Shown here: positions 486-18,762 of the stretch, piece after piece
How the letters are laid out: the number at the start of each line of letters is the position of its first letter
Numbering within the stretch: the stretch's first letter is position 1
Assembly (NCBI GenBank): GCA_003599475.1
Contig: QZKK01000166.1
Location: forward strand, 1 to 18,994
Direction: 5' to 3'
DNA: 18,994 nt
Source: Desulfobacteraceae bacterium
GTDB lineage: Bacteria; Desulfobacterota; Desulfobacteria; Desulfobacterales; SURF-15
The notes under the pieces: model-generated
What the model saw: only the letters and a program-made list of their open reading frames with translations
What the model was told of the DNA's origin: nothing
The model's database searches: none
Program-made: the position numbers and the translations under genes

Positions 486-1262
486 ATGAGCGCACCCGAG
501 GATATCACTTCCACAGGCTCCGGAACAAGCACCGATTCGGAACCCCCGGAAAAACGAAACGGGGCCGGCGGCACCATCTTTCTTTTTTTCATCGTCGGAT
601 TTGCGGTCAGCCTGGTCGTCGGCTGGGTTGCCTTTCCGAGACTTCTTTACTCCCAAAAAAGACAGCCGATCGATTTCAATCATGCCCTCCACGTGGAGTT
701 GGTCGAAGAAGGCTGCCGGAGCTGCCATTATTTCAGGGAGGACGGAAGCTTCTCCGGGGCCCCCGGCCTTGCCGAATGCATCGACTGCCACACCAGCGTC
801 AACGGTGCAGACCCCGAGGAAGAAAAATTCGTCACCCGGTATGTCGCCACCGGTAAGGAGGTTCCCTGGCTGATTTATGCCAAACAACCTCCGTGCGTCT
901 TTTTCTCCCATGCCGCTCATGTGAACGCAGCAAAGATGAATTGCACTGCCTGCCACGGACATATCGGTGAGTCCACCGAGCTTCCGGTTTATGAGGAAAA
1001 CCGAATCACCGGTTACAGCAGAAACATCTGGGGAAAGAGCATCGCCGGTCTCAAAGAGAATTCCTGGGACCGCATGAAGATGGACGATTGCGCCGAATGC
1101 CATGCTAAAAGAGCGCCTTTCGAGACAGAGGTGCCTGCGGAGGACTCCGTCTTCCGCCAGTTCAAAGAGACTGCAGCCGTTGCCTTCCCGAGCGCCGGGA
1201 TAGCGGACAGAGGTTCGAGTGTCCAGACAGAAAAAGATGCCTGCTTCGTATGCCATAAATGA
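486..1262 (+). CDS. qrcA: Menaquinone reductase Qrc, multihaem cytochrome c subunit QrcA
   Basis: 258 residues with one N-terminal membrane helix (about 29-50) behind a polar, Ser/Thr/Glu-rich head, then a periplasmic domain with five CXXCH haem-binding motifs at about residues 77-81, 98-102, 153-157, 202-206 and 253-257, the last ending one residue before the stop. In characterised Qrc this subunit takes electrons from periplasmic type I cytochrome c3 and passes them to the Fe-S subunits. The identification rests on the multihaem membrane-anchored architecture and on the qrcB, qrcC and qrcD genes directly downstream. The stop codon overlaps the upstream extension of the qrcB frame, so the two are probably co-translated. 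The Desulfovibrio vulgaris complex was reported to bind six haems c; only five canonical motifs are visible here. Start chosen at ATG 486, with ACGGAG upstream. Confidence 0.9.
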   Translation: MSAPEDITSTGSGTSTDSEPPEKRNGAGGTIFLFFIVGFAVSLVVGWVAFPRLLYSQKRQPIDFNHALHVELVEEGCRSCHYFREDGSFSGAPGLAECIDCHTSVNGADPEEEKFVTRYVATGKEVPWLIYAKQPPCVFFSHAAHVNAAKMNCTACHGHIGESTELPVYEENRITGYSRNIWGKSIAGLKENSWDRMKMDDCAECHAKRAPFETEVPAEDSVFRQFKETAAVAFPSAGIADRGSSVQTEKDACFVCHK

Positions 1263-1282
1263 TCTGTGATGAGGTCGAATCG

Positions 1283-3556
1283 ATGAAAGTAGATAGAAGA
1301 AGCTTTTTATCCTTCGTAGTCGGCGGTGCAGTGGGCACGGCGCTCTCCCCCCTCCCCTGGAAGTTGACCGACGACCTGTCCATCTGGACGCAAAACTGGC
1401 CGTGGACCCCGGTTCCCGCCAATGGAGAGGCCTCATACATCCAGTCGACCTGTGCGCTCTGCCCCGCCGGCGGCTGCGGAATCATCGTCCGTAAAATCGA
1501 AAACCGGGCGGTCAAGATCGAAGGCCTCGAGGGCCATCCGGTCAACCACGGAGGGATCTGCCCCGTCGGATTATCGGGCCTTCAGCTCCTCTACGGACCC
1601 TCCAGGGTCAAGACGCCTCTGAAACGGGTGGGAAACCGCGGTGCGGGCAGGTGGCAAAAAATATCCTGGGACATGGGACTTGCCGAAGTCCAGGCCAGAC
1701 TTTCCGACCTGAGAAAGGCGGGCAGGGCGCACACCGTCGCCTGCATATCGGGTTCGGACCGTGGGACGGTCCCCCAGCTTCTCAGCAGGCTGCTTACGGT
1801 TTACGGATCGCCCAACTTCATTCGCACCCCTTCCCTTCAGGATGCATATGAACTGACCCTTCATCGGATGCAGGGAGTCCAAGGCTCTGCCGGATTCGAC
1901 ATCGAAAACGCCTCTTTCCTGCTGAGTTTCGGAAGCGGAATCACCGAGGGGTGGGGCTCTCCGGTTCGCATGTTCAGAGCCGTCAGCCACATGAAAAGAA
2001 TCGGTGCAAAATTGGTGCAGATAGAACCGAGGCTCTCTGAAACAGCGGCCAAATCCGACAAGTGGATTCCGATCCGCCCGGGTACCGAGGGTGCTCTGGC
2101 GCTGGGCTTTGCCCATTTCATCATCAAAGAATCCCTCTACAACCGCGATTTTGTCGAAAACTACACGTTCGGATTCGAAGACAGGAAAGACAAGGGAAAC
2201 ACCCGCAAGGGATTCAAAACGATCGTGCTGGAGGGGTACGGCCCCGATACGGTTTCCCGGATCACCGGAGTGGAAAAGGATATCATCGCCCAGACCGCCC
2301 GTTCGTTCGCGCGGGCCGCCAAACCGCTGGCGGTCTGTGGACGCGGACAGGGCGGAGTTCCCGGCAGCACAACGGAGCTTATGGCCGTGCACGCCTTGAA
2401 TGCGCTTGTCGGAAACATCAACAGGCCCGGCGGAATCTGGGCACTGCCGGAGCTCAATTATATCGAATGGCCCGAACCGGAAATGGATGCAGCGGCCTCC
2501 ACCGGAATTCAAAAGGGGCGTCTCGACGAATCCGAAAGCGATCGGTTTCCGCATACAAGATATCTGTTGAACCGATTCCTGCAAAATGCAAGCTCCGGAA
2601 AGCCTTACGGAATCGAAGCGCTTATGGTTTCGGAAGCAAACCCTTTATATTCGCAGCCGGACACGAAGGCCGTCAAGGACGCCCTAGACAAGATTCCCTT
2701 CATCGTAAGTTTTTCATCGTATATGGATGAAACGGCCAAATACGCCGATCTGATCCTTCCCAACCACATGTATCTCGAACGGTACGAGGACGTGCCGCAG
2801 CCGCCCGGGCTTCAGAAACCGGTGATAAGCCTCATGCGTCCGGTGGTATCTCCTCAGTTCGATACCCGTCATACGGGGGATGCGATCCTTATGCTCGCAA
2901 AGGGAATCGGGGGTGTGGTTTCAAAGGCTTTTCCATGGAGCACCTATGAAGACTGCCTGGAGGAGACGCTCGGCAGCCGATTGGAGCCCTTGCTCAAGAA
3001 GGGGTACTGGATGGATGAAAAATTCCAGCCGGCTCCCTGGGATAAAGCCTTTGACACCGCGTCCTCCAGATTCGAACTGGCTGCATCGGATCGAAACGAC
3101 GGGAAAGACGGGGCCGTCATGCCCGCTTTCCAGGCGATCGAGCCCGAAGGGGACAAATCCTATCCCCTGATTCTCATCCCCTATGATTCGATGCGGCTGG
3201 CAAACGGGTATGTGGCCGATCCTCCCTTCGTGATAAAGACCGTCGAAGACACCGTCCTGAAGGGCAAAGACAGCTTCGTTCAGATCAACCCGAAAACGGC
3301 GAAGGAAATCGGGCTGTCGCAAGGAAAAACGGCGCGATTGGAAACTCCCAAGGGCTCCGCCAGAGTGCGGATCCATCTCTACGACGGGATCATGCCGGGT
3401 CTCATCGCGATGCCCAGGGGATTGGGTCATACCGCCTATGACGAATATCTCTCCGGAAAAGGGGTAAACCTGAACGAGCTGATGGGCGTGGCGCCGGATC
3501 CGGCTTCGGGGCTGGATGCGACGTGGGGAATCCGGGCGAAGCTGAGCAGAGCTTGA
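1283..3556 (+). CDS. qrcB: Menaquinone reductase Qrc, molybdopterin-oxidoreductase-like subunit QrcB
   Basis: 757 residues. The N-terminus has a twin-arginine-type signal (DRRSFLSF followed by a hydrophobic stretch), so the protein is probably exported folded and stays on the periplasmic face. Cys57, Cys60, Cys65 and Cys93 (CALCPAGGC and GGICPVG) match the N-terminal Fe-S cluster of the molybdopterin oxidoreductase fold. The rest, up to a C-terminal molydopterin dinucleotide-binding-like domain, follows that fold. In characterised Qrc and alternative complex III this subunit contains no molybdenum and serves electron transfer. The start at ATG 1283 is preferred over ATG 1259 because GAGG lies 8 bases upstream and the Tat motif then sits at the very N-terminus. 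Next gene qrcC follows after 132 bases containing an octamer repeat. Confidence 0.9.
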   Translation: MKVDRRSFLSFVVGGAVGTALSPLPWKLTDDLSIWTQNWPWTPVPANGEASYIQSTCALCPAGGCGIIVRKIENRAVKIEGLEGHPVNHGGICPVGLSGLQLLYGPSRVKTPLKRVGNRGAGRWQKISWDMGLAEVQARLSDLRKAGRAHTVACISGSDRGTVPQLLSRLLTVYGSPNFIRTPSLQDAYELTLHRMQGVQGSAGFDIENASFLLSFGSGITEGWGSPVRMFRAVSHMKRIGAKLVQIEPRLSETAAKSDKWIPIRPGTEGALALGFAHFIIKESLYNRDFVENYTFGFEDRKDKGNTRKGFKTIVLEGYGPDTVSRITGVEKDIIAQTARSFARAAKPLAVCGRGQGGVPGSTTELMAVHALNALVGNINRPGGIWALPELNYIEWPEPEMDAAASTGIQKGRLDESESDRFPHTRYLLNRFLQNASSGKPYGIEALMVSEANPLYSQPDTKAVKDALDKIPFIVSFSSYMDETAKYADLILPNHMYLERYEDVPQPPGLQKPVISLMRPVVSPQFDTRHTGDAILMLAKGIGGVVSKAFPWSTYEDCLEETLGSRLEPLLKKGYWMDEKFQPAPWDKAFDTASSRFELAASDRNDGKDGAVMPAFQAIEPEGDKSYPLILIPYDSMRLANGYVADPPFVIKTVEDTVLKGKDSFVQINPKTAKEIGLSQGKTARLETPKGSARVRIHLYDGIMPGLIAMPRGLGHTAYDEYLSGKGVNLNELMGVAPDPASGLDATWGIRAKLSRA

Positions 3557-3574
3557 ATTACGCGATTTGATTCT

Positions 3575-3668
3575 GCCACCAAGGCACGAAGGCACAAAGA
3601 AAGAACTTGAATTTAAAGCATCTTTGATAGAGCCATAAACTCAGTGTCTTTGTGACTTTGTGGCTGAA
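3575..3668. repeat. Inverted pair of period-8 repeats between qrcB and qrcC
   Basis: The left arm (3575-3604) reads GCCACC then AAGGCACG, AAGGCACA and a degenerate AAGAAAGA. The right arm (3645-3668) reads TGTCTTTG, TGACTTTG, TGGCTGAA, which is the imperfect reverse complement of the left arm. The 40-base centre is AT-rich. The transcript could fold into an imperfect hairpin inside the qrc operon. It resembles in layout, but not in unit length, the period-7 arrays elsewhere in the window. Confidence 0.7.
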
Positions 3669-3688
3669 CAAGCAGAACAGGGGTTTTG

Positions 3689-4504
3689 ATGGAACAATCA
3701 CAAAAAGCGAAAAAATTCGGCATGGTCATCAACCTGGATCTTTGCACCGGATGCGGGGCCTGCATGGTGGCCTGTATGGCGGAAAACAATGTGCCGTTTA
3801 AGGTGGATGAAACCAACAAGCGCGTCAGCATCACCTGGATGCATCTCTACAGGCTGAGCAACGGCAGGCCCTTTCCCGATGCGGATACCTGCTATCTGCC
3901 CAGGCCATGCATGCACTGTGCCGGACCCGAAGAACACGGCCACTCCCCCTGTGTATCGGTATGCCCGGCAACCGCGACCGACTACAGTATGGCCACGGGA
4001 ATCGTAAGCCAGATCTATACCCGGTGTTTCGGGTGCCGGTACTGCATGGCCGCCTGCCCGTATCAGGCCAGGTATTTCAACTGGTGGGATCCGGTATGGC
4101 CGGAGGATATGGAAAAATATCTGAACCCGAATGTATCGGTGCGCATGCGCGGGGTCGTCGAGAAATGCAGCTTCTGCTACCATCGTTACCAGCTTGCCCT
4201 GGACAAGGCGTTTTCGCAGGGCCGAAATGAACTGGAGGAAGATGAATACCAGACCGCCTGCGCGCAGGCTTGCCCGGCAAATGCGATTACCTTCGGTGAT
4301 TTGAACAATCCGAAACACGAGGTCAATCAATTGGTCAGACCCGATCCGAAGCATTTCGGCCGGCCGAGAAATCCCAATGCCTTTCGACTCCTCGAAAGGC
4401 TGCATACCAATCCGAAAGTCTACTACATCTCCAGCCGGAAATGGATCCGGGATCAGGGAGACAATGCCGCAAAGAAGATGCTCGAACAAGGGCACAAAGC
4501 GTAA
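3689..4504 (+). CDS. qrcC: Menaquinone reductase Qrc, iron-sulfur subunit QrcC
   Basis: 271 residues, a DmsB/NrfC/PsrB-like ferredoxin-fold protein carrying electrons between QrcA/QrcB and the quinone-reactive membrane subunit. Four cysteine groups are visible: Cys19/22/25/29 (CTGCGACMVAC), Cys74/77/88/92 (CMHC...CVSVCP), Cys113/116/119/123 (CFGCRYCMAACP) and Cys160/163/191/195 (CSFC...CAQACP). That makes 16 ligand cysteines, enough for four cubane clusters, although Desulfovibrio Qrc has a [3Fe-4S] cluster. No signal peptide is seen; proteins of this type can be exported together with a Tat-bearing partner, here QrcB (inference). Start at ATG 3689 with AGGGG 5 bases upstream; the TTG codon just before it is less likely. 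Confidence 0.92.
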   Translation: MEQSQKAKKFGMVINLDLCTGCGACMVACMAENNVPFKVDETNKRVSITWMHLYRLSNGRPFPDADTCYLPRPCMHCAGPEEHGHSPCVSVCPATATDYSMATGIVSQIYTRCFGCRYCMAACPYQARYFNWWDPVWPEDMEKYLNPNVSVRMRGVVEKCSFCYHRYQLALDKAFSQGRNELEEDEYQTACAQACPANAITFGDLNNPKHEVNQLVRPDPKHFGRPRNPNAFRLLERLHTNPKVYYISSRKWIRDQGDNAAKKMLEQGHKA

Positions 4505-4519
4505 GCCCGTATGAGAGAT

Positions 4520-4550
4520 GAACATCGAACATCGAACGTCCAACATCGAA
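4520..4550 (+). repeat. Period-7 array, family B (GAACATC)
   Basis: Four and a half heptads in tandem: GAACATC, GAACATC, GAACGTC, CAACATC, GAA. It lies in the 160-base qrcC-qrcD gap. The reverse complement of the same family is found at 6195-6229. Nothing in it suggests coding. Confidence 0.85.
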
Positions 4551-4609
4551 TGAAGGATAAAGTCATTTCAGCTTTAGCTTTCGAAGGCTGGGCGTTCGGC
4601 TCAGGAGCA

Positions 4610-4637
4610 GAACCTGAACGCTGAACACTGAACACTC
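4610..4637 (+). repeat. Period-7 array, family A (GAACACT)
   Basis: GAACCT (6 bases) followed by GAACGCT, GAACACT, GAACACT, ending 11 bases before the qrcD ribosome binding site. Between this and the family B array is a 59-base spacer with a short potential hairpin (AGCTT-TCGA-AGGCT region). Copies of family A occur at 6080, 6415 and 14266. Confidence 0.85.
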
Positions 4638-4664
4638 TATAGGATATCAAGGAGTACTGAACGA

Positions 4665-5903
4665 ATGGATTCTGCACTCATTCCCGAGGGCGTGACACGA
4701 ACCCCATTGTGGAAGTTCGCACTGGCGATCGTCATCGTCGGAGCCGTGCTGTTGTGGGGCGTTTATGCCATGGTGCTGGTCTGGATGAAAGGCCTCAATC
4801 AGACTAACATGAACGACTCCTACGGATTTGCGCTCTGGATCTGGGCGGATCTGACGGTGATCGCCCTGGGCGGCGGCGCTTTCTTTACCGGATTGCTCCG
4901 ATACATCTTCGGGCTGAAGCCGCTCAAAAACATCATCAACTATGCCGTACTGATCGGATTCATCTGCTACAGCTCCGCCCAACTGATTCTAGGCCTCGAT
5001 GTCGGGCAACCCCTGCGGGCCTGGTTCATCTTCTGGCATGCCAATGTGCATTCCATGCTGACAGAGGTGGCCTTCTGCCTGAGCTGCTACTTCGGCGTGC
5101 TGACTGTCGAATATCTGCCTTTGATCCTGGAGAACCGCAAAATCGACAGAATCCCCTTGTTCCACAATCTTTCTCACACCATGCACGAGGTCATGGCCGT
5201 TTTTGCAGCCACCGGGGCATTTCTTTCCTTCTTCCACCAGGGATCTCTCGGCGGAGTTTCCGGAGTGCTTTTCGGCCGGCCGTTCGGGTTTCGGGAGCAT
5301 CTTTTCATCTGGCCCTACACCTTCTTTCTGTATACCTGGTCTGCGGCTGCGGCCGGGCCGTCCTTTACCCTTCTCATTACCCGGATTACCGAAAAGGTCA
5401 CCGGTAAAAAATTGGTGGCAGACAATGTCGTTCAGCTCCTGGCAAAGGTATCGGGCTGGATGCTGGCCTCCTACCTCGTTGTAAAGATCGCAGACACCCT
5501 CTACTGGGCGATCGAAACGGCGCCGTCGATGGGCTTTTCGTTCATGGAGTTCTACTCCGGCAACCCCTTCTATGGAATCTGGATACTGATTCTGGAGATC
5601 GTCATCGGGGGCATCATTCCCGCTACGATCCTGATCACCCCCAAATGGCGTGAAAACGGCACCCTTCTGACCGTGGCAACCGTACTAGCGGTCATCGGCG
5701 TGAGCGTGAACCGATGGGTCATGATTCTTCAGACGCTGGCCGTACCGGTCCTCCCATTTGAAGACTGGGTCATGTACATCCCAAGCTGGCAGGAGGTCGC
5801 CACGACGATCCTGCCGATCTGCTATGGGATCATTCTCATTATGCTGTCTTATCGTTATCTGCCGGTCTTTCCGCAGGAAAGGGAACTGAACCCAACGGCA
5901 TGA
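4665..5903 (+). CDS. qrcD: Menaquinone reductase Qrc, NrfD-like integral membrane subunit QrcD
   Basis: 412 residues, mostly hydrophobic, with about ten membrane helices, the size and pattern of NrfD/PsrC/ActC-type quinone-interacting subunits. In Qrc this subunit holds the menaquinone site on the periplasmic side of the membrane. Several acidic and basic residues lie within predicted helices, as expected for the proposed proton path in this family (inference). Start ATG 4665 has AAGGAG 10 bases upstream. It is the fourth gene in the canonical qrcABCD order, and a small membrane protein gene follows 14 bases after its stop. Confidence 0.92.
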   Translation: MDSALIPEGVTRTPLWKFALAIVIVGAVLLWGVYAMVLVWMKGLNQTNMNDSYGFALWIWADLTVIALGGGAFFTGLLRYIFGLKPLKNIINYAVLIGFICYSSAQLILGLDVGQPLRAWFIFWHANVHSMLTEVAFCLSCYFGVLTVEYLPLILENRKIDRIPLFHNLSHTMHEVMAVFAATGAFLSFFHQGSLGGVSGVLFGRPFGFREHLFIWPYTFFLYTWSAAAAGPSFTLLITRITEKVTGKKLVADNVVQLLAKVSGWMLASYLVVKIADTLYWAIETAPSMGFSFMEFYSGNPFYGIWILILEIVIGGIIPATILITPKWRENGTLLTVATVLAVIGVSVNRWVMILQTLAVPVLPFEDWVMYIPSWQEVATTILPICYGIILIMLSYRYLPVFPQERELNPTA

Positions 5904-14384: not shown

Positions 14385-15176
14385 ATGGAGAAATTCAAGG
14401 ATAAGATTCACAGCCTGGTCATGGAAGAATATGCCGGCATCGCAAAGGGGGAGTCCTGCGGATGCGCGCCGTCGTGCTGCAGCGGATCATCGCCCCTGGT
14501 TTCCATCCTGGATCGGGGAATGTCCCTGGACTACACGGAAAAGGATCTTTCGCTGGCGCCGGGAGAAGCGAACCTGGGTCTTGGGTGTGGAAACCCGATC
14601 GGTCAGGCAGGATTGAAAGAAGGGGAAGCCGTCCTGGATCTTGGAAGCGGGGCGGGGTTCGATGCCTTTCTTGCAGCCGGACAGGTGGGTGGATCCGGCA
14701 AAGTCATCGGAGTGGATATGACTCCGGAGATGGTGGAAAGGGCGAAGAAAAACGCAGAAAAGCTTCAGGTGGAAAATGTGGAGTTCCGCCTGGGGCAGAT
14801 CGAAAGGCTTCCGCTTGACGATGCCGTCGTGGATGTTGTTGTTTCGAACTGCGTCATCAATCTTTCCCCGGATAAATCCGCCGTATTCGGTGAAATTTTC
14901 CGGGTGTTGAAGCCGGGCGGGCGGATCTGCATCTCCGATGTGCTTCGCGCCGGAGAAATCCCCGGAGAGCTCAAGAACAATCCTGCGGCCTATACCGGCT
15001 GAGTGAGCGGAGCCGCTTCACCCGATGAGGTGAAAAGGATGCTGTCCGATCTGGGATTTGAGCAGATCGTGGTCATGCGCAAGGAGCAGAGTGAACAGAT
15101 CATCCAGGCATGGAACATCGGCAAAGGAGCCGAAGATATCGTATTTTCCGCTTACATTCATGCCATAAAACCATAG
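14385..15176 (+). CDS. arsM: Arsenite S-adenosylmethyltransferase ArsM, predicted selenoprotein with in-frame UGA (Sec206)
   Basis: 263 residues if UGA at 15000-15002 is read as selenocysteine; 205 if it stops. ArsM methylates As(III) with S-adenosylmethionine in the cytoplasm. Visible: N-terminal Cys25, 27, 31, 32 ([11 protein letters not shown]), Cys68 (GLGCGNP), SAM motif DLGSGAGFD (85-93), and Cys156 (SNCVINLS), the conserved arsenic site. The next conserved element in ArsM is a Cys in the pattern (Y/W)xGCxxGA; here it reads AYTG-UGA-VSGAAS. The frame continues in phase with family-like sequence ([17 protein letters not shown], then [16 protein letters not shown]) to TAG at 15174. A SECIS-like hairpin follows the UGA. 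The alternative is a nonsense mutation. Start ATG 14385 with AGAGGA 11 bases upstream. Confidence 0.8.
15017..15034 (+). promoter_or_regulatory. Candidate bacterial SECIS element in arsM
   Basis: TTCACC (15017-15022), loop CGATGA (15023-15028), GGTGAA (15029-15034): a perfect 6-bp stem, beginning 14 bases after the UGA, with G as the second loop base, 21 bases past the UGA. These agree with known bacterial SECIS rules (short stem-loop just downstream, G in the first two loop positions) and with the 11-base distance in E. coli fdhF. A competing hairpin (GTGAGCG with CGCTTCAC, 15003-15020) would be melted by a ribosome at the UGA. Confidence 0.55.
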
Positions 15177-15250: not shown

Positions 15251-15580
15251 ATGCGAGAGGTTATCTCTGTTGTTTCCTTTGTGATGGCCGCTATCGGGGC
15301 GTTGGCAACGGTAATCGTTGAACAAAGGGATAAGCAGATCATGGCCTCGATTGTCGGCATGGCCTTTTTGCTTTCCTTCTTCATCAATGTGGACATTAAA
15401 TCCGAACTGATCCTTCGGACATCGTGCATCGTTTTTTTTGGCATATCCGTGCTGGGGGGGGTGATGGCCATCTTCAGCAATGTGGAGATGAGACGGACCC
15501 GGTCGATCATTACCGGAATCGTTTCTTTGGGCGCATCCCTGCTTATCCTTTTCGCATATATTGAGTTCAAAATTTTCTGA
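15251..15580 (+). CDS. Small four-helix membrane protein of unknown function
   Basis: 109 residues, MREVISVVSF at the start, with about four hydrophobic helices separated by short charged loops (EQRDKQ, DIKSE, EMRRTR). GGGGGA lies 8 bases before the ATG. It starts 74 bases after the arsM stop and ends 7 bases before the first ATG of the truncated TauE/SafE gene. I do not recognise a family, and it does not resemble the missing N-terminal half of TauE/SafE. Confidence 0.65.
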   Translation: MREVISVVSFVMAAIGALATVIVEQRDKQIMASIVGMAFLLSFFINVDIKSELILRTSCIVFFGISVLGGVMAIFSNVEMRRTRSIITGIVSLGASLLILFAYIEFKIF

Positions 15581-15587
15581 AGCAGGC

Positions 15588-15917
15588 ATGTCCGGCCACC
15601 AGGGCGCTTTGCGTTCTGCATTCCTCGTGAAGATCGGGGTTTCGACGCAGGCTTTTGTCGGCACAAATGCCGTGATCGGATTCATGGTAGACACGGCGCG
15701 AATCGCAACCTATGCGGGCCTTTTCCTTCTTGCGCGGAAAGCAAGCCCCATCGGCCCGGATCAATGGCCGTTGATCATATCCGGAATGACCGCGGCGTTT
15801 GCCGGTGTGTTGATCGGCAAACGCTTTTTTCACAAGGTGACCATGTCGGGCCTTCAGGCAGCGACGGGCATTTCCCTCTCGTTCATCGCTGTTGCCCTCG
15901 GAGCAGGAATCATCTAA
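15588..15917 (+). pseudogene. C-terminal half of a TauE/SafE-family sulfite exporter-like permease
   Basis: About 109 residues: MSGHQGALRSAFLVKIGVS, FVGTNAVIGFMVDTARIATYA, then WPLIISGMTAAFAGVLIGKRFFHKVTM and an ALGAGII end. These match the second half of TauE/SafE transporters, which are normally about 250 residues; the usual sequence before SGHQG is a first half of about 130 residues that is absent. The preceding sequence belongs to an unrelated membrane protein frame. No convincing ribosome binding site precedes ATG 15588, although the stop of the upstream gene is 7 bases away, so coupled translation is possible. Most likely a remnant left by a deletion or recombination; a functional half-size transporter cannot be ruled out. 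Confidence 0.65.
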
Positions 15918-16014
15918 TCGCCATGCTTCAGGACGTAAGATTGGGGTGATTCGGTGCGCTCAGAGTCGTCGGGAACACACCGGATATGGCAATTTTTTCC
16001 TGAGGGGATGCGAA

Positions 16015-17247
16015 GTGAAGGAAGGCCGCTCTTCTTCTGAAAAGAAAGAAAATACACCTCGAGGTGCTTCGCCGACTGCAGAGGGGGTACGCCCGGCTTC
16101 ACTGCGGGAGCTTGCACTTTTATTCCTGCGCCTTGGTTCGACGGCATTCGGCGGTCCTGCAGCCCACATTGCCATGATGGAAGACGAGGTCGTGCGCCGC
16201 CGCCATTGGCTTACGCAGGAGGAGTTCCTGGACCTCCTCGGCGCAACCAATCTCATTCCCGGCCCGAACTCCACCGAGATGGCCATTCATATCGGTCATC
16301 GCAGGGCAGGCTGGGCCGGCCTGCTCGTTTCAGGCGGCTGCTTCATCCTGCCTGCAACACTCATTGTCCTATTCATCGCCTGGGCCTACGTAAGCTTCGG
16401 CCGCTTGCCCCAGGCCGAAGGCCTGCTCTATGGCGTAAAGCCGGTTGTGCTTGCCATCGTTTTTCAGGCGATCTGGAGACTCGGGCGCTCGGCGCTCAAG
16501 ACCAAGCTGCTGGCGGCTACGGGTTTGACTGCTGCGGCTCTAAACTTCATTGGCGTAAACGAGTTGGCCGTTCTCTTTGGGGCAGGTGTGGTTATGGCCG
16601 TTTACCGCTCGGCGGCTTCAGGAAGATCGGGTGATAGTGCGGGTCTTCTGCTCGGTATTTGGCCCGGCATTTCTCCAGCAGCGGCAGCAGCCGTAACGGG
16701 AGCCTCTGCCGCACCGTTTGGTTTGTGGCAGATGTTTTTACTCTTCGTAAAGATCGGCTCCGTGCTTTTTGGAAGCGGCTACGTGCTTCTTGCTTTTTTG
16801 CGAGCCGATCTAGTCGACCGCCTGCACTGGCTCACAGAGGGCCAGCTTCTCGATGCCGTTGCAATCGGCCAAATCACGCCGGGGCCGGTGTTTACAACGG
16901 CGACGTTTATTGGCTATGTGCTGTCCGGCATGCCCGGCGCCATGCTGGCGACAGCCGGAATCTTTCTTCCCTCCTTTTTCTTTGTCGCGGTCAGCGGTCC
17001 GCTGGTGCCCCGACTGAGACGCTCGCCGACAGCGGGAGCTTTCCTTGACGGTGTAAACGCTGCTTCTCTGGCCTTAATGGCCGTCGTCATGGTTCAGCTC
17101 GCTCGTACAGCGTTTGTGGACTGGCCTGCGACAGCGATCGGCGTAGCCGCCGCCTTCCTGCTTCTGCGATACAAGTTAGGCTCGACGTGGCTCATTTTGG
17201 GAAGCGCGGTCGTTGGAATGATTGTCTACATCGCAAATTTGTCTTGA
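16015..17247 (+). CDS. chrA: Chromate transporter ChrA
   Basis: 410 residues, two CHR domains. The first has LRLGSTAFGGPAAHIAMMEDEVV and LIPGPNSTEMAIHIGHRRAG, the second FVKIGSVLFGSGYVLLAFLRADLV and IGQITPGPVFTTATFIGYVLSG, the long-chain ChrA pattern of chromate efflux with roughly 10-12 helices. GTG 16015 is chosen as start because GAGGGG lies 7 bases upstream; the frame runs further back to 15892 but that overlaps the TauE/SafE fragment. The stop codon overlaps the -35 box of the following arsR promoter. Substrate (chromate versus other anions such as sulfate) is not determinable from sequence. Confidence 0.93.
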   Translation: MKEGRSSSEKKENTPRGASPTAEGVRPASLRELALLFLRLGSTAFGGPAAHIAMMEDEVVRRRHWLTQEEFLDLLGATNLIPGPNSTEMAIHIGHRRAGWAGLLVSGGCFILPATLIVLFIAWAYVSFGRLPQAEGLLYGVKPVVLAIVFQAIWRLGRSALKTKLLAATGLTAAALNFIGVNELAVLFGAGVVMAVYRSAASGRSGDSAGLLLGIWPGISPAAAAAVTGASAAPFGLWQMFLLFVKIGSVLFGSGYVLLAFLRADLVDRLHWLTEGQLLDAVAIGQITPGPVFTTATFIGYVLSGMPGAMLATAGIFLPSFFFVAVSGPLVPRLRRSPTAGAFLDGVNAASLALMAVVMVQLARTAFVDWPATAIGVAAAFLLLRYKLGSTWLILGSAVVGMIVYIANLS

Positions 17248-17298
17248 CAGATCCAATTAAACAATATTGAATGCATTTAAATTTTTGCTTAATTGGAT
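17244..17298 (+). promoter_or_regulatory. Promoter and operator region of arsR
   Basis: TTGACA at 17244-17249 overlaps the chrA stop. A TTGAAT (17267-17272, spacer 17) or TATTGA (spacer 15) could serve as -10. ATCCAATTAA (17251-17260) and TTAATTGGAT (17289-17298) are a perfect 10-bp inverted repeat, extendable to 13 of 14. Between them AATGCATT (17270-17277) is a second palindrome. A dimeric ArsR binding here would cover the promoter, the usual autoregulatory arrangement. Confidence 0.55.
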
Positions 17299-17303
17299 TT
17301 GAA

Positions 17304-17798
17304 ATGAAAGGCTCCATTCACATTTTCAAGGCGCTTGCCGATCCCACCCGGCTGAAATTGGTCGACCTGCTGTTGAGCCACGATCTCTGTGTGGGGGCTT
17401 TGGCCGGCCGGTTGGGCATCTCCAAACCGGCCGTATCCCAGCATCTGCAGATCTTGCGGAAGGCCGGGCTGGTCAAGGGCGAAAAACGCGGCTACTGGAC
17501 CCATTATTCGGTCGAAAGAGAAATCCTTTATCGACTTTCCGCCGAAATCAGGGAGAAAGCCGAATTCCCCTCTTTCCCCCAGGGAGCCTGCCAAAGAACC
17601 GTTTCCGAATCAACCGTAATTTACGATGGAAGGAGGACTGTGGACATGTGTAGCGATTGTTGCCGAAAACCGGAAAACTTGAAGGGAAAGCCGGAGGAAT
17701 GTTCACCCGAGCAGATCAAGGCATGCCACGGGGATAGCAAGAACCACCCCTGCGTAATGGGCAAACCGGAGGCCGCCACCGATGACAGCCATCGTTGA
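17304..17798 (+). CDS. ArsR/SmtB-family metalloregulator with Cys-rich C-terminal tail
   Basis: 164 residues. The N-terminal 90 are a winged helix-turn-helix of ArsR type (KALADPTRLKLVDLLL, then LAGRLGISKPAVSQHLQILRKAGLVKGEKRGYWTHYSV), a dimeric repressor released by metal or metalloid. The classical ELCVC site is here DLCVG, keeping only Cys29. The tail carries Cys96, 116, 119, 120, 133, 141 and 150 (MCSDCC, EECSPEQIKACHG, HPC) and may take over metalloid sensing. Start ATG 17304 fits the domain. A perfect AGGAGG and an in-frame ATG at 17646 precede the tail. The 3' end overlaps the ABC ATPase start by 17 bases, pointing to one operon. Confidence 0.9.
   Translation: MKGSIHIFKALADPTRLKLVDLLLSHDLCVGALAGRLGISKPAVSQHLQILRKAGLVKGEKRGYWTHYSVEREILYRLSAEIREKAEFPSFPQGACQRTVSESTVIYDGRRTVDMCSDCCRKPENLKGKPEECSPEQIKACHGDSKNHPCVMGKPEAATDDSHR
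17646..17798 (+). other. Possible internal in-frame start producing a 50-residue Cys-rich protein
   Basis: AGGAGG (17631-17636) is 9 bases before ATG 17646, ideal spacing. Translation from here would give only the Cys-rich tail of the ArsR protein (MCSDCCRKPENLKGKPEECS to HPCVMG), with six cysteines and two His near them. Either this is an extra product, or the tail was once a separate gene fused to arsR. Confidence 0.35.
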
Positions 17799-18762
17799 AG
17801 CGCGAAATCTTCAAAAATCCTACGGTAAGATCCGAGCCGTCGAGGATGTCAGCTTCTCAATCGAAGAGGGTGAAATTTTCGGCCTTTTGGGTCCAAACGG
17901 CGCGGGAAAGACGACCACCATCCGGATGCTTTCCAGCCTGACGGACCCGGACGGCGGTGAAGCGTTGGTCGACGGCCGCAATGTCGTTGAGGATCCTGTA
18001 GGCGCCAAAATGAGACTCGGTGTGGTTCCGGAAAGCTCAAACCTTTACATGGAGCTTACCGCGCGGGAAAACCTCATCTACATGGCGCAGCTCTACGGCA
18101 TGCCGAAATCCCAATGGGAAGCGCGGGCGGAAGAGCTCCTCCGTCAATTCGGATTGCACGAAAGAAAAGACAGCCGCTTCCAGGGGTTTTCAAGAGGGAT
18201 GAAGCGGCGGCTGACCATCGCGGCGGCCCTGGTGCACCGGCCCCGGATCGTGTTTCTGGACGAGCCGACCACAGCCCTTGATATCATGAGCGCCCGGGGT
18301 CTCCGAAAATCGATCCGGGAGCTTAAAAAAAGTGGAGTGACTGTCCTTTTGACCACCCACCTGATCCCAGAGGCCGAAGAGCTCTGCGACCGGGTCGCCA
18401 TCATCCTCAAGGGAAAGATTCTGATGATCGACACGGTCGCCGGCATCCGGCAGCAGGTCAAAGAGACCGAAATCCTGGAACTTGCACTCGATCCGTTTTC
18501 AGAGCCGATCGTCGATCGGTTGAAAGGGATCGGCGGCATCGAAAAGGTTTCGAAGACAAACTCGCATCTGCGGCTTTACGGGAGAAACGTGTTAAGGGAA
18601 ATCCCGGCAATCGTACAAGCGCTGTCAGAAAACCGCACCGAAATCCTATCGATTCACAGCCTGAACCCCTCGCTCGAAGATGCATTCGTCAAGTTAACGG
18701 GGGTTGAAGCAGAAGTCATGAAGATCGACAAACCCTTGAAACCTGCCGGAGGCGGCGCATGA
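17782..18762 (+). CDS. ABC transporter ATP-binding protein, ABC-2 (NatA/DrrA) type
   Basis: 326 residues. Walker A GPNGAGKTT (37-45), signature FSRGM (136-140), Walker B IVFLDEP (156-162), D-loop TALD and switch His193 (TTH) are all present; the Q-loop position reads VVPES, with Glu in place of Gln. The C-terminal 110 residues form the extension seen in ABC-2 exporter ATPases (HSLNPSLEDAFVKLTG). GGAGG 9 bases upstream and a 17-base overlap with arsR; the next gene overlaps by 4 bases (ATGA). It drives export through the permease that follows. Substrate unknown; the arsR linkage hints at a metal or metalloid stress role. Confidence 0.93.
   Translation: MTAIVEARNLQKSYGKIRAVEDVSFSIEEGEIFGLLGPNGAGKTTTIRMLSSLTDPDGGEALVDGRNVVEDPVGAKMRLGVVPESSNLYMELTARENLIYMAQLYGMPKSQWEARAEELLRQFGLHERKDSRFQGFSRGMKRRLTIAAALVHRPRIVFLDEPTTALDIMSARGLRKSIRELKKSGVTVLLTTHLIPEAEELCDRVAIILKGKILMIDTVAGIRQQVKETEILELALDPFSEPIVDRLKGIGGIEKVSKTNSHLRLYGRNVLREIPAIVQALSENRTEILSIHSLNPSLEDAFVKLTGVEAEVMKIDKPLKPAGGGA

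Follow-up and report, generated by a model that had tools for sequence, protein, structure and literature searches.

A probable selenocysteine-containing arsenite S-adenosylmethyltransferase (ArsM) in a Desulfobacteraceae bacterium

The arsM gene in the stretch of DNA analysed here (the window, 18,994 nucleotides from a Desulfobacteraceae bacterium) is interrupted by an in-frame UGA. Judged from the sequence and its relatives, the gene very probably encodes a selenocysteine (Sec)-containing ArsM of 263 residues, and we put the probability of this reading at about 0.95. The UGA itself is confirmed. Its reading as Sec is supported because related genes show a strict Sec/Cys interchange at this column, the UGA genes have a hairpin at one of two fixed places, and the genomes of relatives contain Sec machinery. 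The features are collected in Table 1.

Table 1. Features of the arsM gene in the window, with the evidence for each.
Feature	Position	Strand	Evidence
arsM, arsenite S-adenosylmethyltransferase, 263 aa, probable Sec at residue 206	14385..15176	+	frame; NF008823; Methyltransf_31
Cys68 codon (TGT), equivalent to CmArsM Cys72	14586..14588	+	alignment to 4kw7; sequence
Cys156 codon (TGC), equivalent to CmArsM Cys174	14850..14852	+	alignment to 4kw7; sequence
In-frame UGA, probably Sec (U206), equivalent to CmArsM Cys224	15000..15002	+	only TGA, TGC or TGT at the column in 142/142 distinct related loci; alignment to 4kw7
C-terminal 57 codons, missed by automatic gene calls	15003..15173	+	58% identity and coding-type mismatch pattern, 45 UGA loci
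Bacterial SECIS-type hairpin	15017..15034	+	6-bp stem 15017-15022/15029-15034; loop CGAUGA 15023-15028

Results

The arsM frame and its arsenic ligands

Starting from the ATG, the TGA lies in phase and is followed by 57 codons that run to a TAG at 15174-15176, with SAYIHAIKP as the C-terminus. The first-pass annotation had described an otherwise intact arsM frame split by a TGA, and the family models agree. The read-through protein matches NCBIfam NF008823 (arsenite methyltransferase) over residues 5-263 and profile positions 4-268 of 272, with 324.4 bits against a cut-off of 263. Pfam assigns it to Methyltransf_31, and its best solved relatives are the arsenic methyltransferases 5evj, 4kw7 and 4fr0.

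In CmArsM, Cys72, Cys174 and Cys224 are named as As(III) binding sites (PMC4211708, PMC3790734). The alignment to 4kw7 places Cys68, Cys156 and residue 206 of the window protein at these three positions and so upholds the earlier equation of Cys156 with Cys174 and of the UGA with Cys224. All three As(III)-binding positions are filled in this alignment, the third by Sec, not Cys, if the UGA is read as proposed. The counterpart of CmArsM Cys224 in human AS3MT is Cys206, and the numbering of the human enzyme, Cys156 and Cys206, is coincidentally the same as in the window protein (PMC4211708).

The UGA column in related genes

Related loci came from genomes sampled at one per species (the best 80 of 216 relatives) and from three further genome sets, giving 156 loci, 142 of which are distinct. 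The initial 80 had TGA (15 loci), TGC (33) or TGT (32) at the column. Among the 142 distinct loci the codon was TGA in 52, TGC in 49 and TGT in 41, with no other codon. A search of ArsM homologues for U or C at this column, proposed with the first-pass annotation, thus returned a strict interchange (52 TGA against 90 Cys codons), and the window gene shows the pattern expected of a bacterial selenoprotein, an in-frame UGA aligned to Cys in homologues. The relatives were also inspected for stops elsewhere in the gene. The matched stretch contained no second stop in any TGA gene (0 of 52), and a stop there was present in two Cys genes, L073 and L155. The fetched locus nearest to the window protein, L081, is 72% identical to it.

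In the three further genome sets, one internal TGA was present in 16 of 26 matches (23 of 85 genomes with a match), 17 of 56 (55 of 295 genomes) and 21 of 89 (84 of 291 genomes; one more match has a TAA), and the position of the TGA at the column is established in these counts for the fetched loci. Some single genomes hold Sec-ArsM and Cys-ArsM paralogues side by side, namely G045 (L091, L104, L106) and G002 (L082, L105). A separate observation concerns L016 (around 2539): this Sec-ArsM sits on a long branch, reads C-G-U (a CxU motif) at the site and is followed by a hairpin that is strong, at -11.6 kcal/mol.

The hairpin downstream of the UGA

Hairpins were scored with a published bacterial model (loop of 3-9 nt, stem of 4-16 bp, G in the first two loop positions), and the energies were computed from the unbroken stem (core) alone. 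This model (bSECIS) places the loop 16-37 nt past the UGA and sets the MFE at -7.5 or lower (PMC13188914). In the window the stem begins 14 nt downstream of the UGA and the loop lies 20 nt past it. Loop, stem, G and spacing fit the model, whereas the core reaches -6.0 against the limit of -7.5 kcal/mol; the 45-nt fold has -13.5 kcal/mol. The value of -6.0 was matched or bettered by 515 of 5000 codon shuffles. As a single sequence, the window hairpin is within chance and is weak evidence, and Rfam, with no match in the window at the gathering score, lends no support to a SECIS. Given that the window hairpin alone was not significant against codon shuffles, the case for a SECIS was rested on the family.

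Every one of the 53 UGA genes, that of the window among them, had a model hairpin. Its loop lay 20 nt past the UGA in 30 genes, 17 nt past it in 17 and 21 nt past it in 6. The energy was -6 kcal/mol or better in 51 of the 53, and the core reached -7.5 or lower in 27 and missed this limit in 26; the weak cases are L081 (-3.2) and L115 (-3.7 kcal/mol). The mean of the UGA genes was -8.0 kcal/mol, compared with -1.7 for 100 codon shuffles (s.d. 0.4, lowest -2.7). In contrast, the 90 Cys genes had a mean of -1.2 against -2.4 for their shuffles (s.d. 0.3) and therefore no enrichment; any model hairpin was found in 54 of the 90, at scattered places and with 5 at -6 or better. The same contrast between UGA and Cys genes was seen in earlier subsets (16 vs 65 and 41 vs 78 genes), and since the genes are related it does not amount to 53 independent tests. 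The SECIS-like hairpin reported in the first-pass annotation is thus present, weak on its own but strong across the relatives.

The stem pairs were counted in 22 distinct Desulfobacterota-type rows, taken before the last 30 loci were added. Compensatory changes occurred at two of seven pairs (G-C for A-U in one row, C-G for U-A in three rows), two pairs were broken in one row each, and the loop read CGRUGA in 13 of the 22. The 17 Nitrospirota-type genes have the loop start 17 nt past the UGA and a different stem sequence. With the loop taken as six bases, 13 of these 17 form pairs 3 and 4; the other four use a four-base loop. The two placements with their different stems are represented by L010-L012 and L107-L123 (17 nt) and by L001-L009 and the window (20-21 nt).

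Sec machinery in the genomes of relatives

SelB and tRNA-Sec were searched for in the genomes of 32 of the 80 initial loci (all 15 UGA loci and 17 Cys loci) and in 14 controls. Among the 15 genomes of related UGA genes, SelB passed the cut-off in 13 (G006 did not reach it and G008 had a fragment) and tRNA-Sec in 14 (68-82 bits, cut-off 47; G003 did not reach it). Both were found in 12 of the 15 and at least one in all 15. The genomes of Cys genes had SelB in 5 of 17 (one a partial match) and tRNA-Sec in 8 of 17 (two near the cut-off), a contrast that is partly taxonomic because several of the Cys genomes are haloarchaea. In the controls, the SelB cut-off was reached in 2 of 14 and that of tRNA-Sec in 5 of 14; a bare pass of the tRNA-Sec cut-off is therefore weak evidence. 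ARAGORN found no tRNA in the window.

Database annotation of the gene

The first-pass annotation had predicted that gene callers would truncate this gene, and they do. A protein search scored 7999 candidates. Of the best 120 matches, 113 (counting the called product of the window itself) align over 78% of the query and the other 7 over 100%. The fetched proteins (n = 32) include 25 partial ones, and 25 of 25 end in YTG, the residues right before the UGA; the remaining 7 have Cys at the column. Because 113 of the best 120 matches cover only the part before the UGA, surveys based on gene calls would contain ArsM without its last ligand.

Coding pattern after the UGA and other readings of the codon

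The codons of the window were compared with those of 45 of the 52 UGA loci, seven being dropped for short flanks or an ungapped post-UGA identity below 45%. The mismatch fractions at codon positions 1, 2 and 3 were 0.25, 0.14 and 0.59 before the UGA and 0.31, 0.22 and 0.58 after it. Residue identity averaged 73% over the 60 codons preceding the UGA and 58% over the 57 that follow it. The ratio of residue-changing to silent differences was 722:1145 before the UGA and 1080:771 after it. The part downstream of the UGA keeps a coding pattern, though it is less conserved.

The excess of residue-changing over silent differences after the UGA speaks for a nonsense pseudogene or a sequencing error at an original Cys codon, and the single base that separates the UGA from TGC and TGT and the chance-level hairpin of the single sequence point the same way. 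Against these stand the retained coding pattern after the UGA and the occurrence of TGA at exactly this column in 52 of 142 distinct loci without a further stop in the matched stretch. In addition, P0003, a protein that comes from another contig and differs by one residue, ends at the same place. We consider a pseudogene or an error very improbable. Decoding of the UGA as another residue (a Trp or Gly code), or ordinary read-through, has scarcely any probability, and we found nothing in its favour. TGA ends 8 of the 13 other main genes of the window, which therefore uses the standard code with TGA as a normal stop; moreover, all 90 non-TGA loci have Cys at the column, and the hairpin and the Sec machinery of the relatives also speak against such decoding. 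Pseudogene, sequencing error and alternative code were accordingly rejected on the column statistics, P0003, the coding pattern and the use of TGA as a normal stop.

A further possibility is that the short, 205-residue form works as an ArsM when selenium is scarce, with the UGA serving as a switch as well. Bacterial UGA decoding is usually incomplete, and some short product is to be expected. However, the short form would be without the counterpart of Cys206, described as an active-site residue of human AS3MT (PMC4211708), and we regard a functional short form as improbable, if less so than the readings rejected above.

Gene neighbourhoods

At L002 (1342-6989) the gene order is arsR, ArsP-type permease, Thioredoxin_3, Sec-arsM, DGC, thioredoxin-like and DsbD-like. 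L005 (1844-6827) has ArsP, Thioredoxin_3, Sec-arsM, DGC and two thioredoxin-like genes, and a DsbD relative was not found there. Both runs of genes look like operons. The flanking genes scanned at L003 and L011 are not an arsenic operon and include no ArsP, thioredoxin, DGC or DsbD genes. By tblastn, relatives of ArsP, Thioredoxin_3, DGC and DsbD adjoin at least 11, 16, 8 and 13 of the 52 UGA loci and at least 3, 3, 0 and 0 of the 90 Cys loci, whereas relatives of arsR show the opposite trend (at least 6 of 52 against at least 38 of 90); the flanks being mostly short, all these counts are lower bounds, the queries came from one UGA locus, and taxonomy confounds the contrast.

In the window, arsM follows murJ, has no ArsP- or thioredoxin-like neighbour, and is followed further on by chrA-, arsR- and ABC-type genes. 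MurJ, DUF2400, ChrA and two small ORFs did not recur beside the 142 distinct loci in tblastn, a weak result given flanks of often about 1.5 kb. The region downstream of arsM (15251-18762) holds a ChrA transporter, an ArsR-type regulator with a Cys-rich tail and an ABC ATPase, and the small ORFs at 15251-15580 and 15561-15917 have no Pfam match. Elsewhere in the window, at 486-5903, there is a row of a haem-motif-rich ORF, a molybdopterin-oxidoreductase-type gene, an FeS-type ORF and a membrane-protein ORF. This row presumably resembles the Qrc complex of sulfate reducers (Pfam was run on 1259-3553 only).

The Sec-ArsM clade

A tree was built from 88 proteins: 51 UGA proteins (two shorter ones omitted), the 30 best Cys loci and 7 full-length Cys proteins from the database. 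A branch with 99/94 support separates all UGA proteins, together with these 7 Cys proteins, from the rest; L016 and L142 form long branches. The minimum number of U/C changes was four, consistent with a single change to Sec and three changes to Cys within the clade, in a tree that gives no direction by itself, uses a simple model and draws its sample by likeness to the window protein. Three origins of the seven Cys proteins were required in 5-95% of the bootstrap trees. Four U/C changes also came out of a quickly built tree with 127 rows, where supported branches force at least two of them. Sec-ArsM is thus one supported clade that takes in genomes of Desulfobacterota type and of Nitrospirota type, and within it a switch to Cys took place about three times. 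Within the clade there are two SECIS placements, one codon apart, and the 17-nt group is a single clade (support 100/99).

Discussion

From the known chemistry of ArsM and AS3MT, the working of the protein can be proposed as follows. SelB and tRNA-Sec would decode the UGA, aided by the downstream hairpin, and yield the 263-residue enzyme. Trivalent arsenic would be held by Cys68, Cys156 and Sec206 beside S-adenosylmethionine, and a methyl group would be transferred to the arsenic. A Cys156-Sec206 selenenylsulfide may then take the place of the disulfide proposed for the Cys enzymes, and might be re-reduced by thioredoxin-type partners, whose genes adjoin some Sec-arsM copies elsewhere.

The novelty of Sec-ArsM implied by the first-pass annotation does not stand: the literature on the family is nearly two decades old, and the reading of the window gene is mostly a correct re-discovery. 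Sec methyltransferases were reported in Ostreococcus and Thalassiosira in 2007, the one of Ostreococcus being counted among homologues of bacterial selenoproteins (PMC2375036). In 2008, 'Arsenite S-adenosylmethyltransferase PRK11873' was given with 8 sequences among the selenoproteins of ocean metagenomes (PMC2398784), and 41 Sec-ArsM in 39 organisms were counted in 2016 (PMC5029168). Two reviews with tables of prokaryotic selenoproteins, from 2022 (PMC9312934) and 2026 (PMC13188914, with the motif UxxG), enter Sec-ArsM as 'Experimentally verified' and refer to Fomenko et al. 2007. According to PMC4211708, that study pointed to Cys157 and Cys207 as redox-active residues in mouse AS3MT. The main text of deep-Sep (PMC12013277) does not mention arsM.

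Compared with the known Sec-ArsM (PRK11873/NF008823) as these sources present it, the window protein shares the family model, the UxxG motif (UVSG in the window), the probable active-site Sec and the downstream hairpin; we found no difference in kind, and the sequence is new. CmArsM (4fr0, 4kw7) and human and mouse AS3MT have the same catalytic core, with Cys where the window protein would have Sec (Cys72/Cys174/Cys224 of CmArsM for Cys68/Cys156/U206), and the CmArsM chains are longer (377-383 residues against 263). NCBIfam already includes fused Sec-ArsM families. The methyltransferase part is shared with ArsM_AhpD_UU (NF041537, 3 Sec; 164 bits vs cut-off 510), ArsM_DUF2284_UU (NF041536, 2 Sec; 157 vs 575) and MTase_UXPK_star (NF047649, 2 Sec; 146 vs 460), the numbers of Sec being those given in PMC13188914. 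Unlike these three, the window protein would have a single Sec and does not extend beyond the ArsM domain; membership in NF041536 and NF041537 was rejected on the scores.

The picture across the clade may be new, with the one-codon shift of the SECIS, the repeated change to Cys and the ArsP, thioredoxin and DsbD neighbours of some copies. It was not found in searches of the open-licence PMC literature, a few of them directed at ArsP or SECIS, and a 2025 paper on selenoprotein neighbourhoods may already contain part of it. As a tentative account, which we hold to be possible rather than probable, Sec could be ancestral in an old ArsM lineage of Desulfobacterota-type and Nitrospirota-type anaerobes. 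In part of the lineage the gene might belong to an arsenic module coupled to a reductant (ArsP permease, thioredoxin-like, DGC and DsbD-like proteins), in which Sec would enable recycling of the enzyme by thioredoxins under sulfidic conditions; on about three occasions Cys would have replaced Sec, and the SECIS would have moved by one codon between the two groups. The ArsP, thioredoxin and DsbD neighbours, together with close Sec/Cys pairs in one clade (L086 and P0005, for example), offer a system in which the benefit of selenium to arsenic methylation can be tested.
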